Shown one piece after another: positions 3,581 through 26,907 of a stretch of 34,353 bases of DNA. This DNA is from Actinomycetota bacterium (GTDB lineage Bacteria > Actinomycetota > Thermoleophilia > Solirubrobacterales > 70-9): positions 1-34,353 of the forward strand of contig JAFDWC010000014.1 of the NCBI GenBank assembly GCA_018268655.1, given 5' to 3'. The position numbers were made by a program, and so were the translations under genes. The notes under the pieces were generated by a model. That model was not told the origin of the DNA, searched no databases, and worked only from the letters and a program-made list of their open reading frames with translations. Every line of letters starts with the position of its first letter. Position 1 is the stretch's first letter.

Positions 3581-3620
3581 TGCTCCCAAGGTCGCCTCGC
3601 CGCCAGCCCGCTCGCCATGA

Positions 3621-3665
3621 GTGATGGATTGAAGTGGCTATAGCGACGTCAATCCATCAACCATG
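3621..3665. repeat. Dispersed palindromic repeat, copy 1, plus adjoining CCATG
   Basis: An imperfect palindrome centred on the TA step at 3640/3641 in GCTATAGC. The outer arms TGATGGATTGA (3622-3632) and TCAATCCATCA (3649-3659) are perfectly complementary over 11 bp. It matches 25965-26009 at 39 of 45 positions, including CCATG beyond the palindrome. Taking the palindromic base at each difference gives a perfect 40-bp palindrome, so both copies look like decayed descendants of one. It does not supply the start of the next gene, which has its own ribosome site and GTG at 3708. Confidence 0.85.
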
Positions 3666-3692
3666 CGGTCAGCGTGTCTCCCGGCGGGACGA
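3663..3692 (+). pseudogene. Possible relic of the 5' end of an AbiEi/DUF559-type gene
   Basis: The ten codons after the ATG in palindrome copy 1 read M-R-S-A-C-L-P-A-G-R. The ten after the ATG in copy 2 (26007) read M-V-G-A-C-L-A-A-R-P. The shared A, C, L and A residues are encoded by synonymous codons in the two copies (GCG/GCA, TGT/TGC, CTC/CTG, GCG/GCT), which suggests past selection on protein sequence. Only this short stretch remains, and similarity then ends. The comparison is short, so the call is tentative. Confidence 0.35.
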
Positions 3693-3700
3693 GGGGGAGG
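3691..3700 (+). promoter_or_regulatory. Ribosome binding site deciding the GTG start at 3708
   Basis: GAGGGGGAGG, 7 nt before the GTG at 3708. This strong site argues against using the in-frame ATG at 3663 inside the repeat. Confidence 0.7.
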
Positions 3701-3707
3701 TTGTTCG

Positions 3708-4658
3708 GTGACCGCGGGCCCGCCCGCCGCGGCGAGGGCGGGGCTGATCGAGGACGGCGGTGCGGCCGCGGCGTCGGCCGAGTTCTTCCGCTCGCCCGCC
3801 TTCCTCGCCGCCGAGGGGGCGACCCACACGCTGCGGATCGAGACCGACGCCGGCGCCGAGCTGCTGGCGCCGCTGGTGGTGCGGCCGATCGGCGCCGACC
3901 CCGAGCGCGACGCCTCCTCGCCCTATGGCTTCCCCGGCCTCGCCGCCCCCGACGGCCTCCTCCTCGACCCCGCCGCGATCGACTTCGCCGCCACCGGCCT
4001 GGTCAGCGTCTTCTTCCGCCACCGCCTCGGCCCGCCACCGCTGGCCGGCGCCAGCCCCCGCAACGTCGTCCAGATCGCCGACCCGGCGCTGCCGCGCAAG
4101 AGCCGCCCCTCCGATCGCCGCCAGATCCGCCGCAACCGCGAGCGCGGCTACGAGCTCGAGCTGGTCCCGGGAGCCGACGCCGACGCCGCCCAGCGGGCCG
4201 GCTTCGTCGACCTCTACGAGCAGACCATGCGCCGCACCGACGCCGCCCGCCGCTACTTCTTCGACCCCTCCTACTTCGACCGCGTGCTCAGCGCCGAACG
4301 CACCTGGCTCGCCCTCGCCACCGACCCCAGGGGTGAGCTCGCCGCCGCCTCGATCGCCACCGTCAGCGACGGCTACCTCCACTACTACCTCAGCGGCAGC
4401 GCCGACGCCCGCCTCTCGGACTCGCCGATGAAGAACGTCGTCGCCCTCCTAGTCGACCACGCGGAGGAGCTCGGCCTACCGCTAAACCTCGGCGGCGGGA
4501 TCAGCCGCGGCGACGCGCTCGAGGAGTTCAAGCGCGGCTTCGCCAACCGCGAGCAGCAGTGGTTCACCTCCGAGGTCGTCTGCGATCCCGCCGCCTACGA
4601 GCGCCTCAGCGCCGGTCGCGAGGCCGGCGGCTTCTTCCCGGCCTACCGCGCCCCCTAG
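3708..4658 (+). CDS. FemAB/GNAT-like acyltransferase (acetyltransferase 6 type)
   Basis: A 316-residue protein that looks like the FemAB-like branch of the GNAT superfamily (PF13480 type). The N-terminal half begins like a substrate domain (EFFRSPAFLAAEG). The second half has SRPSDRRQIRRNRERGYELE, FVDLYEQTMRRTDAARRYFF, a core strand ELAAASIATVSDGYLHYYLSGS, and GISRGDALEEFKRGFANREQQW near the C-terminus. Relatives add amino acids or acyl groups to peptidoglycan, exopolysaccharide or lipid-linked substrates; the exact reaction is unknown. The frame is open back to 3663, but the strong ribosome site selects GTG 3708. It closes the glycan-related block, facing DUF3105 across a hairpin. Confidence 0.78.
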   Translation: MTAGPPAAARAGLIEDGGAAAASAEFFRSPAFLAAEGATHTLRIETDAGAELLAPLVVRPIGADPERDASSPYGFPGLAAPDGLLLDPAAIDFAATGLVSVFFRHRLGPPPLAGASPRNVVQIADPALPRKSRPSDRRQIRRNRERGYELELVPGADADAAQRAGFVDLYEQTMRRTDAARRYFFDPSYFDRVLSAERTWLALATDPRGELAAASIATVSDGYLHYYLSGSADARLSDSPMKNVVALLVDHAEELGLPLNLGGGISRGDALEEFKRGFANREQQWFTSEVVCDPAAYERLSAGREAGGFFPAYRAP

Positions 4659-10870: not shown

Positions 10871-11965
10871 ATGGAGATCGCCTGCGTCATCGACAGTCGC
10901 TTGGCATCTCCCGCGCGCCCGGGTCGTTCCGGGGGGCCTCGGCCCGGGCGCGCCGATCTTCATCAGGGGTACGCAGATATCGATGACCCGGTCGCTGCGG
11001 GGGAGGCGACCGAGCGGATGGTGAGGGCGCTGGAGGCGATCGGCGCGGCGGTCGAGTCAGGGCGGGCGGGGGAGGCCTTCTTCGCCGTCGACGGGCTGTG
11101 GGGGATCCACGGCGGCTCCGCCGCGGGAGTGCTGGCGGCGGCGCGGCGGGCGCTGCGCCAGCAGGAGCCCCGGGAGGTGGCCCGCCCTGACGGCGGCGAA
11201 GCACGCTGGCATCTCGCCACCGGGCCAGCCCGCTTCGCCGCCTACCTGGAGGCCGCGGGGTGGGGGAGCCCGGCTCCGGTCGAGGCGCTGCGAGCGCGGC
11301 TGCAGGCGCCACGGCCCGAGGTCGAGGCGCTGCTGGAGGGGCTCGAGCGGCTCGGGATCGAGACGCTGCCGGCGCTGGCGCGGATCTCGGCCGACCAGGT
11401 CGCCGACCGCTTCGGCCGCCTCGGCCTCGCCGCCCTGCGGCTGGCTCGGGGCGAGGACGAGCCGCTGCGGCCGCGGCAGCCCCACGAGGACCTGGCGGAG
11501 GCGATCGAGCTGCCGGAAGGGATCGCCGGGCGCCAGCTCGACCGGGCGCTGGAGCTGCTCGTCGACCGCCTGCTCGCCTCGCCCCGCCGCGCCGGCCGCA
11601 CCCTGCTGGGTCTGCGGCTGGGCGCTCTGCTCGCCGCCGGCGGCAGCTGGAGCGTCGAGCAGGGCCTCGGCCGCCCGACCGCCTCGGCCCGGGTGCTGCG
11701 GTCGCTGCTGGCGGCGCGGCTGGAGGAGCTGCCGGGGCCGGCGACGGCGCTGCGGCTGCGGGCGCTCGGCCTCGGCCCGCCCGCCAGCGACCAGCTCGAG
11801 CTCGCGGTCGGCGGCGAGGGACCGCGCCGCCGCCGGCTCGGCGCCGCCGTGCGCGAGGTCCGCGCCACCCAGGGGCCGGGCGCGCTGCTGAAGATCCTCC
11901 CGGTCGACTCCGCCTCGCGGGTCCCCGAGCGCTGGGCCCTGCTGACCCCGTTCCCGGAGTTGTGA
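10871..11965 (+). CDS. imuB: ImuB-like Y-family polymerase homologue (N-terminally shortened)
   Basis: A 364-residue protein matching the middle and C-terminal parts of ImuB, the catalytically inactive Y-family adaptor that links DnaE2 to the beta clamp. Recognisable segments are EAIGAAVES-GEAFFAVDGLWGIHGG (residues 55-85), LERLGIETLPALARISADQV (about 158-177), LARGEDEPLRPRQP, ELPEGIAGRQLDRALELLVD and the closing VDSASRVPERWALLTPFPE. The first residues (IACVIDSRLA) resemble the family start, but only about 50 residues precede EAIGAAVE where I would expect about 100. An internal deletion in the palm region is therefore likely. The SOS box fixes the start. The stop overlaps the next ATG. Confidence 0.82.
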   Translation: MEIACVIDSRLASPARPGRSGGPRPGRADLHQGYADIDDPVAAGEATERMVRALEAIGAAVESGRAGEAFFAVDGLWGIHGGSAAGVLAAARRALRQQEPREVARPDGGEARWHLATGPARFAAYLEAAGWGSPAPVEALRARLQAPRPEVEALLEGLERLGIETLPALARISADQVADRFGRLGLAALRLARGEDEPLRPRQPHEDLAEAIELPEGIAGRQLDRALELLVDRLLASPRRAGRTLLGLRLGALLAAGGSWSVEQGLGRPTASARVLRSLLAARLEELPGPATALRLRALGLGPPASDQLELAVGGEGPRRRRLGAAVREVRATQGPGALLKILPVDSASRVPERWALLTPFPEL

Positions 11966-25963: not shown

Positions 25964-26009
25964 GTTGATGCATTGACGTCGCTATAGCGACGCGAATCCA
26001 TCAACCATG
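25964..26009. repeat. Dispersed palindromic repeat, copy 2, plus adjoining CCATG
   Basis: A 42-bp imperfect palindrome (25964-26005) centred between 25984 and 25985 in GCTATAGC; the inner arms CGTC/GACG and outer GTTGATG/CATCAAC pair. It matches copy 1 (3621-3665) at 39 of 45 positions. Here it lies directly before an ATG (26007) from which the AbiEi/DUF559 reading frame seems to have once started. It may be an operator for the gene's winged-helix domain or the end of a mobile module. Confidence 0.85.
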
Positions 26010-26082
26010 GTCGGGGCATGCCTGGCGGCTCGCCCGCCGCCAGCATTTCGTCGTCGCTCGTCCGCAACTGCTCGAGCTTGGG

Positions 26083-26907
26083 ATGACGCCGAGCGCGATC
26101 CGCCACCGCCTCGCGACCGGCCGCCTCCATGAGGTCCACCGCGGCGTCTACGCGGTTGGCCGCCGCCAGCTCGGCCGTTTCGGCGAACTGACCGCGGCGA
26201 CGCTCGCCTGCGGGCCGTCCTCGCAGCTCAGCCACCGCAGCGGCGCAGAGCTCTGGCGCATCCGTCCGCCCTGGAGCGGACCGATTGAAGTGACGCTGCC
26301 GCTGGGCCTGCCCCACGCCCGCCCCGACTTGAAGATCCACCGGCGCGTTGTCGGTCCGCCGAGACAGGTCCACGGCATCCCCGTCGGCGACCCGCTCTCG
26401 ATCCTGATCGACCTCGCGACCACCGACCTCGACGACGAAGAGCTCGAAGCGGCCGTCAACGAGGCCGACCACCGCAAGCTCCTCGCCACCCCGGTCCTGC
26501 GGACCGCCCTCGACTCCAACCCGCGCCTCGGCGCCGGCCGTCTCCGCCGCCTGCTCGACGCCCAGACCTTCAGCCGCTCCCAAACCGCGCTCGAGCGCCG
26601 CTTCCTCCAGCTCGCCCTCGCGGCCGGCCTGCCCAAGCCGGCCGCCCAGCGCCGCCTCGGCCGCCTCGGGGTCGACTTCCTCTGGCCCGAGCTCGGCCTC
26701 GTCGTCGAGACCGACAGCCTCACCTACCACCGCACCGTCGCCGCCCAGACCACCGACCTCCAGCGCGATCAGGCCCACGCCCGCCGCGGCCTCCGCACCG
26801 TCCGCTTCAACCACGCCCAGGTCTTCCACCAGCCCGACTACGTGCGCGCGGTCCTCGCCGACGTCGCCCGCCACCTCGGCCGCGCCGAGCAGGGCGGCGC
26901 CGGGTAG
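26083..26907 (+). CDS. AbiEi-like winged-helix/DUF559 endonuclease-like protein, 5' frameshift
   Basis: A 274-residue protein from ATG 26083. The N-terminus (LATGRLHEVHRGVYAVG) is the end of an AbiEi-type winged-helix domain and the C-terminal third (RRLGRLGVDFLWPELGLVVE, then AQTTDLQRDQAHARRGLRTV and FNHAQVF) is a DUF559/Vsr-like nuclease fold with D, E and Q residues in usual positions. The family sequence continues upstream in this frame (RQHFVVARPQLLELG from about 26038) without a normal start codon. The ATG at 26007 starts MVGACLAAR in another frame. Removing 4 nt of the CGCCCGCCGCC run (26031-26041) would join them, so the original start was probably 26007 and the gene is frameshifted or misread there. 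It ends 18 nt before kup. Confidence 0.78.
   Translation: MTPSAIRHRLATGRLHEVHRGVYAVGRRQLGRFGELTAATLACGPSSQLSHRSGAELWRIRPPWSGPIEVTLPLGLPHARPDLKIHRRVVGPPRQVHGIPVGDPLSILIDLATTDLDDEELEAAVNEADHRKLLATPVLRTALDSNPRLGAGRLRRLLDAQTFSRSQTALERRFLQLALAAGLPKPAAQRRLGRLGVDFLWPELGLVVETDSLTYHRTVAAQTTDLQRDQAHARRGLRTVRFNHAQVFHQPDYVRAVLADVARHLGRAEQGGAG

Follow-up and report, generated by a model that had tools for sequence, protein, structure and literature searches.

The window (the whole stretch of 34,353 nucleotides analysed here) carries two nearly identical palindromes, one of which stands at the head of a gene for an AbiEi-DUF559 protein. The question raised by this locus is what connects such a gene with such a repeat. 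The preliminary description had offered two readings of the palindrome, namely an operator of the wing domain or a recognised part of a spreading unit, and these two readings are compatible with each other.

The palindrome noticed in the preliminary description is real. The 45-nt segments at 3621–3665 and 25965–26009 were identical at 39/45 positions, and choosing the palindromic base at each differing position gave a perfect 40-bp palindrome with 20/20 pairs. The 24-bp core matched twice in the window and 0 times in 100 dinucleotide shuffles; with up to 3 mismatches, it matched 9 times in the genome, while the reversed control matched 0 times. The full-length palindrome is approximately 50 bp, with the consensus CATCGTTGATGGATTGACGTCGCTATAGCGACGTCAATCCATCAACGATG. 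A covariance model built from 10 copies found 17 distinct genome places at a score of at least 36 bits, giving the many copies that the preliminary description had looked for. The two copies in the window are as follows:

3616–3665, no strand assigned: palindrome copy 1, with its centre at 3640/3641 and arms of 25 nt, inserted in the GNAT/GNAT6 intergenic gap (hairpin scan)
25964–26005, no strand assigned: palindrome copy 2, the head of the AbiEi-DUF559 gene (hairpin scan and homologous heads in the congeners G003, G005, G006, and G007)

Mismatches are present in both window copies. Asymmetric mismatches are common to several copies of the palindrome (one example is a G facing a G, located five bases from the centre, which occurs in L004, L006, L007, and L009 and in mirrored form in L008), indicating that the copies descended from one another and did not originate separately. 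The genomes used are draft or metagenome assemblies in which many palindromes lie at contig ends; such palindromes probably break assemblies, and the copy numbers given here are therefore lower bounds. Palindromes at or near contig ends include L015/L038 (G001, contig C202) and L276, L285, and L288 (G000). A third hairpin of the window (11191–11241, score 13.4) lies within a coding frame and has an unrelated sequence, and the Rfam match there is at chance level. The Rfam search otherwise returned one tRNA in a flank and weak matches below the curated thresholds, and the palindromes correspond to no known RNA family. Viral contigs scanned for either palindrome pattern gave no match. The exact core scan of public genomes returned one record, the actinobacterial MAG AC_59, in which the surroundings of the site are the same sequence as contig C2 of G002.

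The gene downstream of copy 2 was confirmed by Pfam as AbiEi_4 plus DUF559. The preliminary description had started it at the ATG lying 2 nt after the palindrome (26007–26009); this ATG belongs to another reading frame, one that runs into a stop, and it was ruled out as the start of the DUF559 gene. In the AbiEi/DUF559 frame (that of 26008), the last upstream stop lies at 25966, and no usual start codon comes before the ATG at 26083, a start that would cut off part of the winged helix. The frame and the centre of its head are placed as follows:

25984–25986, + strand: ATA at the palindrome centre, where the orthologs have an ATG start codon (ortholog comparison)
26008–26907, + strand: AbiEi_4-DUF559 gene, given as the open frame (Pfam, frame, and same-locus orthologs)

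In G003, G005, G006, and G007, the ortholog of the AbiEi-DUF559 gene is flanked by the same neighbours, encoding a Cpn10-like protein and the K+ transporter Kup. All four orthologs start inside a palindrome whose centre is the ATG. The arm sequences of these heads differ from that of the window, and the arms are still complementary. An alignment of the five orthologous heads by MAFFT gave gaps, and the pairs were therefore counted ungapped with Python. Nine positions had changed on both sides, versus 1 to 6 with one arm slid; the value of 6, at slide +1, arises because the centre of three heads is displaced by half a base. Copy 2 is thus not one more dispersed copy, as had been assumed, but the ancestral head of a gene whose position is shared with relatives. 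In the window, ATA stands at the ancestral start position in the palindrome centre, and this copy of the gene, which has no normal start codon, may therefore be impaired or inactive, or it may use a rare start. The gene stays at its locus while the palindromes move. Its fixed position between Cpn10 and Kup in the four congeners differs from that of a homing endonuclease gene, which is inserted in its own target and has empty alleles. An adjacent gene for an AbiEii nucleotidyltransferase toxin is absent here and in the congeners, where the neighbours are likewise the Cpn10-like and Kup genes.

A palindrome centred on the start codon is common among the DUF559 genes of the genus. PF04480 was searched in 12 genus genomes, and 82 genes were read, of which 74 had a full-length frame. 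A palindrome with a score of at least 8 was centred on an in-frame ATG, GTG, or TTG in 49 of these 74 genes. Elsewhere in the same frames, such a palindrome occurred at 9 of 1150 in-frame start-like codons. At the threshold used, one third of the full-length heads were non-palindromic. The start-centred palindrome was present in 8/12 DUF559 genes of G006 versus 13 of about 1000 other genes (Fisher P = 3 × 10−12). Beyond the genus, no start-centred palindromes were seen in DUF559 genes, and some of these genes had palindromes near the start but off-centre (L257, L263, and L271). Three DUF559 genes had their own palindrome repeated 6 to 16 nt past the stop. At L289/L290 (G000, C310:3250–3288 and 4220–4258), a DUF559 gene lies between two copies of its own palindrome in opposite orientation, one at the start and one just past the stop.

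The dispersed copies avoid coding sequence. All 17 copies (17/17) in the window's own genome were intergenic or at a gene edge according to a simple gene caller based on codon usage. The 1.14 Mb of G006, the most deeply sampled relative, contained 162 palindromes with a score of at least 13, versus 5 in a locally shuffled control, and 145 of the 162 were intergenic, the intergenic share of the sequence being 10%. Convergent gaps were enriched among the palindrome-bearing gaps of G006 (35/97 versus 84/509 of all gaps), and divergent gaps were depleted (11/97 versus 142/509).

A joined protein query was used to follow the flanking genes of several sites through the genus, and the sequence was read at four junctions: nuoH/nuoI, hutF/hutI, GNAT/GNAT6 (the site of window copy 1), and PAP2/ychF. 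The same junctions in congeners were tight, often overlapping, and palindrome-free, each being empty in 4 to 10 congeners (GNAT/GNAT6 in G003, G005, G006, G007, and G010), whereas the window's own genome had 120 to 300 bases including the palindrome at each of them. The four sites are empty in relatives, and the palindrome therefore inserts; the absence from orthologous sites that the preliminary description had looked for was found at all four. A short repeat of the GTGA/TGAG type occurs at both ends of the inserts and is a candidate target duplication. The insert in the window is delimited as follows:

3581–3711, + strand: probable insert surrounding copy 1 and carrying GGTGA at each end, placed against the empty sites of congeners; its boundaries are approximate

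At its right end, this unit provides GGGGGAGG ahead of the GTG start at 3708. Several copies contribute, with their right end, a ribosome-binding site (GGGGAGG...) ahead of the next start codon. Three loci of the same genome (L108, L112, and L114) have in common a block of approximately 110 nt after the palindrome. At the end of the block, a GGAGGTT-type ribosome-binding site precedes ATGAGC/GTGAGC, and the insert thus supplies the ribosome-binding site of the next gene. A different insert of approximately 220 bp, with the inverted repeat ends AGATGACCGATTCC / GGAATCGGTCATCT, was seen at the GNAT/GNAT6 junction in G008 (L137:1610–1847) and G011 (L135). This junction is an insertion hot spot common to these two genomes and that of the window.

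These positions bear on what the palindromes might do without being mobilised by the protein. They could be operators, through dispersed copies of which each AbiEi-like protein controls other genes besides its own, the task of the nuclease domain being unrelated. AbiEi proteins do autorepress at inverted repeats, the heads are centred on start codons, and some copies lie upstream of genes. The preference for convergent gaps and the avoidance of divergent ones argue against such control, as do the species-specific insertions within the nuoH/nuoI and hutF/hutI operons and the many palindromes situated inside repeated units of approximately 600 bp; we consider this explanation unlikely.

The copies do not have the pattern of intrinsic terminators: some lie inside nuoH/nuoI and hutF/hutI, and the copies read have no T run after the arm. 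Simple terminators were ruled out for the operon copies by their positions. A broader function as mRNA hairpins, which would terminate or stabilise 3′-ends and block translation at the DUF559 start codon, would agree with the many copies just past stop codons, the start codon in the loop, and the arm complementarity that is kept while the sequence changes. However, copies stand mid-way in conserved operons, some carry their own ribosome-binding site, and asymmetric mismatches are inherited among copies. Such a function would also leave the match to the DUF559 heads unexplained and has no counterpart among known RNA families. We regard it as very unlikely.

The preliminary description had also looked for dispersed palindromes next to DUF559 genes. 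The dispersed copies seldom adjoin these genes (1/17), but the genes bear a start-codon palindrome that the dispersed copies resemble. Seven of the nine heads of G006 had dispersed relatives (14, 1, 8, 3, 9, 7, and 2 per head, the head itself removed), compared with 0/108 shuffled heads (12 per head). The family GCTGTTCC...GGAACAGC, a pattern in which only the outer arms are fixed and the inner bases vary by genome, had 104 copies in G005, 77 in G008, 57 in G006, 17 in G011, 15 in the window's own genome, and 11 in G003, and none in G001, G002, and G004. With the heads left out of the counts, the GCTGTTCC copies were nearest to the DUF559 head of their own genome in 13/14 cases in the window's genome and in 16/16 cases in G011. 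The match to the own head was weaker and partial in G005 and G006. No such head was found among the DUF559 loci read in G003 or among the seven read in G008, one of which is truncated. By sequence comparison, dispersed palindromes are thus similar to the DUF559 heads in their own genome.

Palindromes of G006 and G005 also occur inside the repeated units of approximately 600 bp, which are non-coding and contain up to four different palindromes each. One example, of the 600–700 bp size, is L061:1560–2260 in G006, with four palindromes (P1–P4) and conserved spacers, and many other places are similar. In six congeners, between 80 and 176 pieces matching such units were counted per genome. At the ends of the unit, P1 and P4 have the common apex CCTGGCAGGCTGTG in opposite orientation, and no known DUF559 head corresponds to them.

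The palindromes may also be viewed as non-autonomous elements whose movement depends on an unrelated transposase or on replication slippage, with the DUF559 heads as frequent landing places or sources. The dispersal in congeners of larger units with four different palindromes would fit this, as would P1 and P4, which are without a known head, and the window locus, which stays put while palindromes move. Against it, two thirds of the DUF559 heads are start-codon-centred palindromes of many different sequences, and dispersed copies track their own head in two genomes. Chance landing would produce neither pattern, and we consider independent movement improbable as a whole.

The protein itself was modelled with AlphaFold (mean pLDDT 91), and two parts were distinguished:

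26008–26574, + strand: AbiEi antitoxin-like part, residues 1–189 of the frame from 26008
26575–26883, + strand: Vsr/I-Bth0305I-like nuclease part, residues 190–292

Residues 1–189 aligned with the AbiEi antitoxin 6y8q over 177 residues (Z 12.7, 3.9 Å), and PADLOC gave an AbiEi match with an E value of 5 × 10−20. Residues 190–292 aligned with NGO0050 (3hrl; Z 13.7, 1.6 Å), the homing endonuclease I-Bth0305I (3r3p; Z 13.1, 2.5 Å), and Vsr (1cw0; Z 12.1, 2.2 Å). The catalytic-type residues E196, D223, E234, D236, H241, R253, and R266 were invariant in the alignment of 25 relatives, and the modelled fold together with these residues would place the domain with the EDxHD/Vsr-type nucleases. In the model, the window protein thus has a complete AbiEi antitoxin fold fused with a predicted Vsr/I-Bth0305I-like nuclease. 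Searches of NCBIfam and PHROGs returned nothing. A Vsr-like DUF559 protein of Caulobacter is described in the available part of the literature; among the publications naming DUF559, none concerns palindromes by title or abstract.

The closest known arrangement is that of REP elements with RAYT genes. The palindromes resemble REPtrons (REP plus RAYT/TnpA-REP) in being short, genome-specific, and present in many intergenic copies, with a partner gene that has matching palindromes beside it (PMC8266576, PMC3116915). The DUF559 gene takes the place of RAYT here, with a weaker match in G005 and G006 and no head found in G008 and G003. The partner differs, being an AbiEi-Vsr-type fusion and not an HUH Y1 transposase, and the palindromes are about 40–50 bp, whereas REPs are 20–40 bp, and have the partner's start codon at their centre. 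A search for the Y1 (HUH)/RAYT transposase PF01797 gave 0/12 genus genomes, and the positive control matched 5/14 known genomes. RAYT was ruled out as the partner enzyme by this absence.

Other known systems have parts of the arrangement. CGTC-tagged REPs, including some Rickettsia palindromic elements, are dispersed palindromes apparently without a dedicated transposase and likewise have no RAYT partner (PMC3733652), but they are known from other phyla, and a candidate partner gene is present here. The type IV toxin-antitoxin protein AbiEi has the same whole fold and an inverted-repeat pair spanning about 49 bp close to its start (PMC7319586); in contrast, the gene described here has no toxin partner beside it, its product carries a fused nuclease domain, and copies of the repeat are dispersed. 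The EDxHD homing endonuclease I-Bth0305I and Vsr are alike in the fold of the C-terminal domain and in the pattern of acidic and histidine residues, but the window gene lies outside any intron or intein and is immobile at its locus.

We propose that the AbiEi-DUF559 genes of the genus form a gene-plus-palindrome system, REPtron-like with a different enzyme, in which the nuclease half drives or has driven the copying; we judge the case for and against this to be evenly balanced. The proposal starts from the heads, most AbiEi-DUF559 genes beginning mid-way in their own palindrome of 30–50 bp. The site bound by AbiEi near its own start consists of two 23-bp inverted repeats with 3 bp between them (PMC7319586), and because this site is close in size and layout to the palindromes, the AbiEi-like half likely binds the head palindrome, as a pair of half-sites, and would repress its own gene. 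Copies of the palindrome have spread, singly or within the larger non-coding units, to intergenic sites of their own genome, as the insertions indicate, and the nuclease half would reach these copies through the same specificity. The Vsr/homing-endonuclease-like half would then cut at the palindrome or at target sites and move the palindrome, which would be copied in the repair of the break, now or formerly.

A bolder proposal, which we put forward tentatively and hold at somewhat less than an even chance, is that AbiEi-DUF559 proteins are a new class of palindrome-mobilising endonuclease. The antitoxin half would recognise the start-codon palindrome and the nuclease half would copy it into intergenic sites, making the protein an analogue of RAYT with a separate enzyme origin.

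Partnerships of a gene and a repeat are known for RAYT transposases. A further large class of palindromes in bacteria is not known to have an enzyme of its own (PMC3733652). Here, a common family of proteins of unknown function is tied by sequence to genome-specific palindromes, which suggests an enzyme-repeat partnership undescribed so far. If the enzyme binds and cuts the palindromes, this would give AbiEi-DUF559 proteins a function and would add a second, independent route by which palindromes spread in bacteria.
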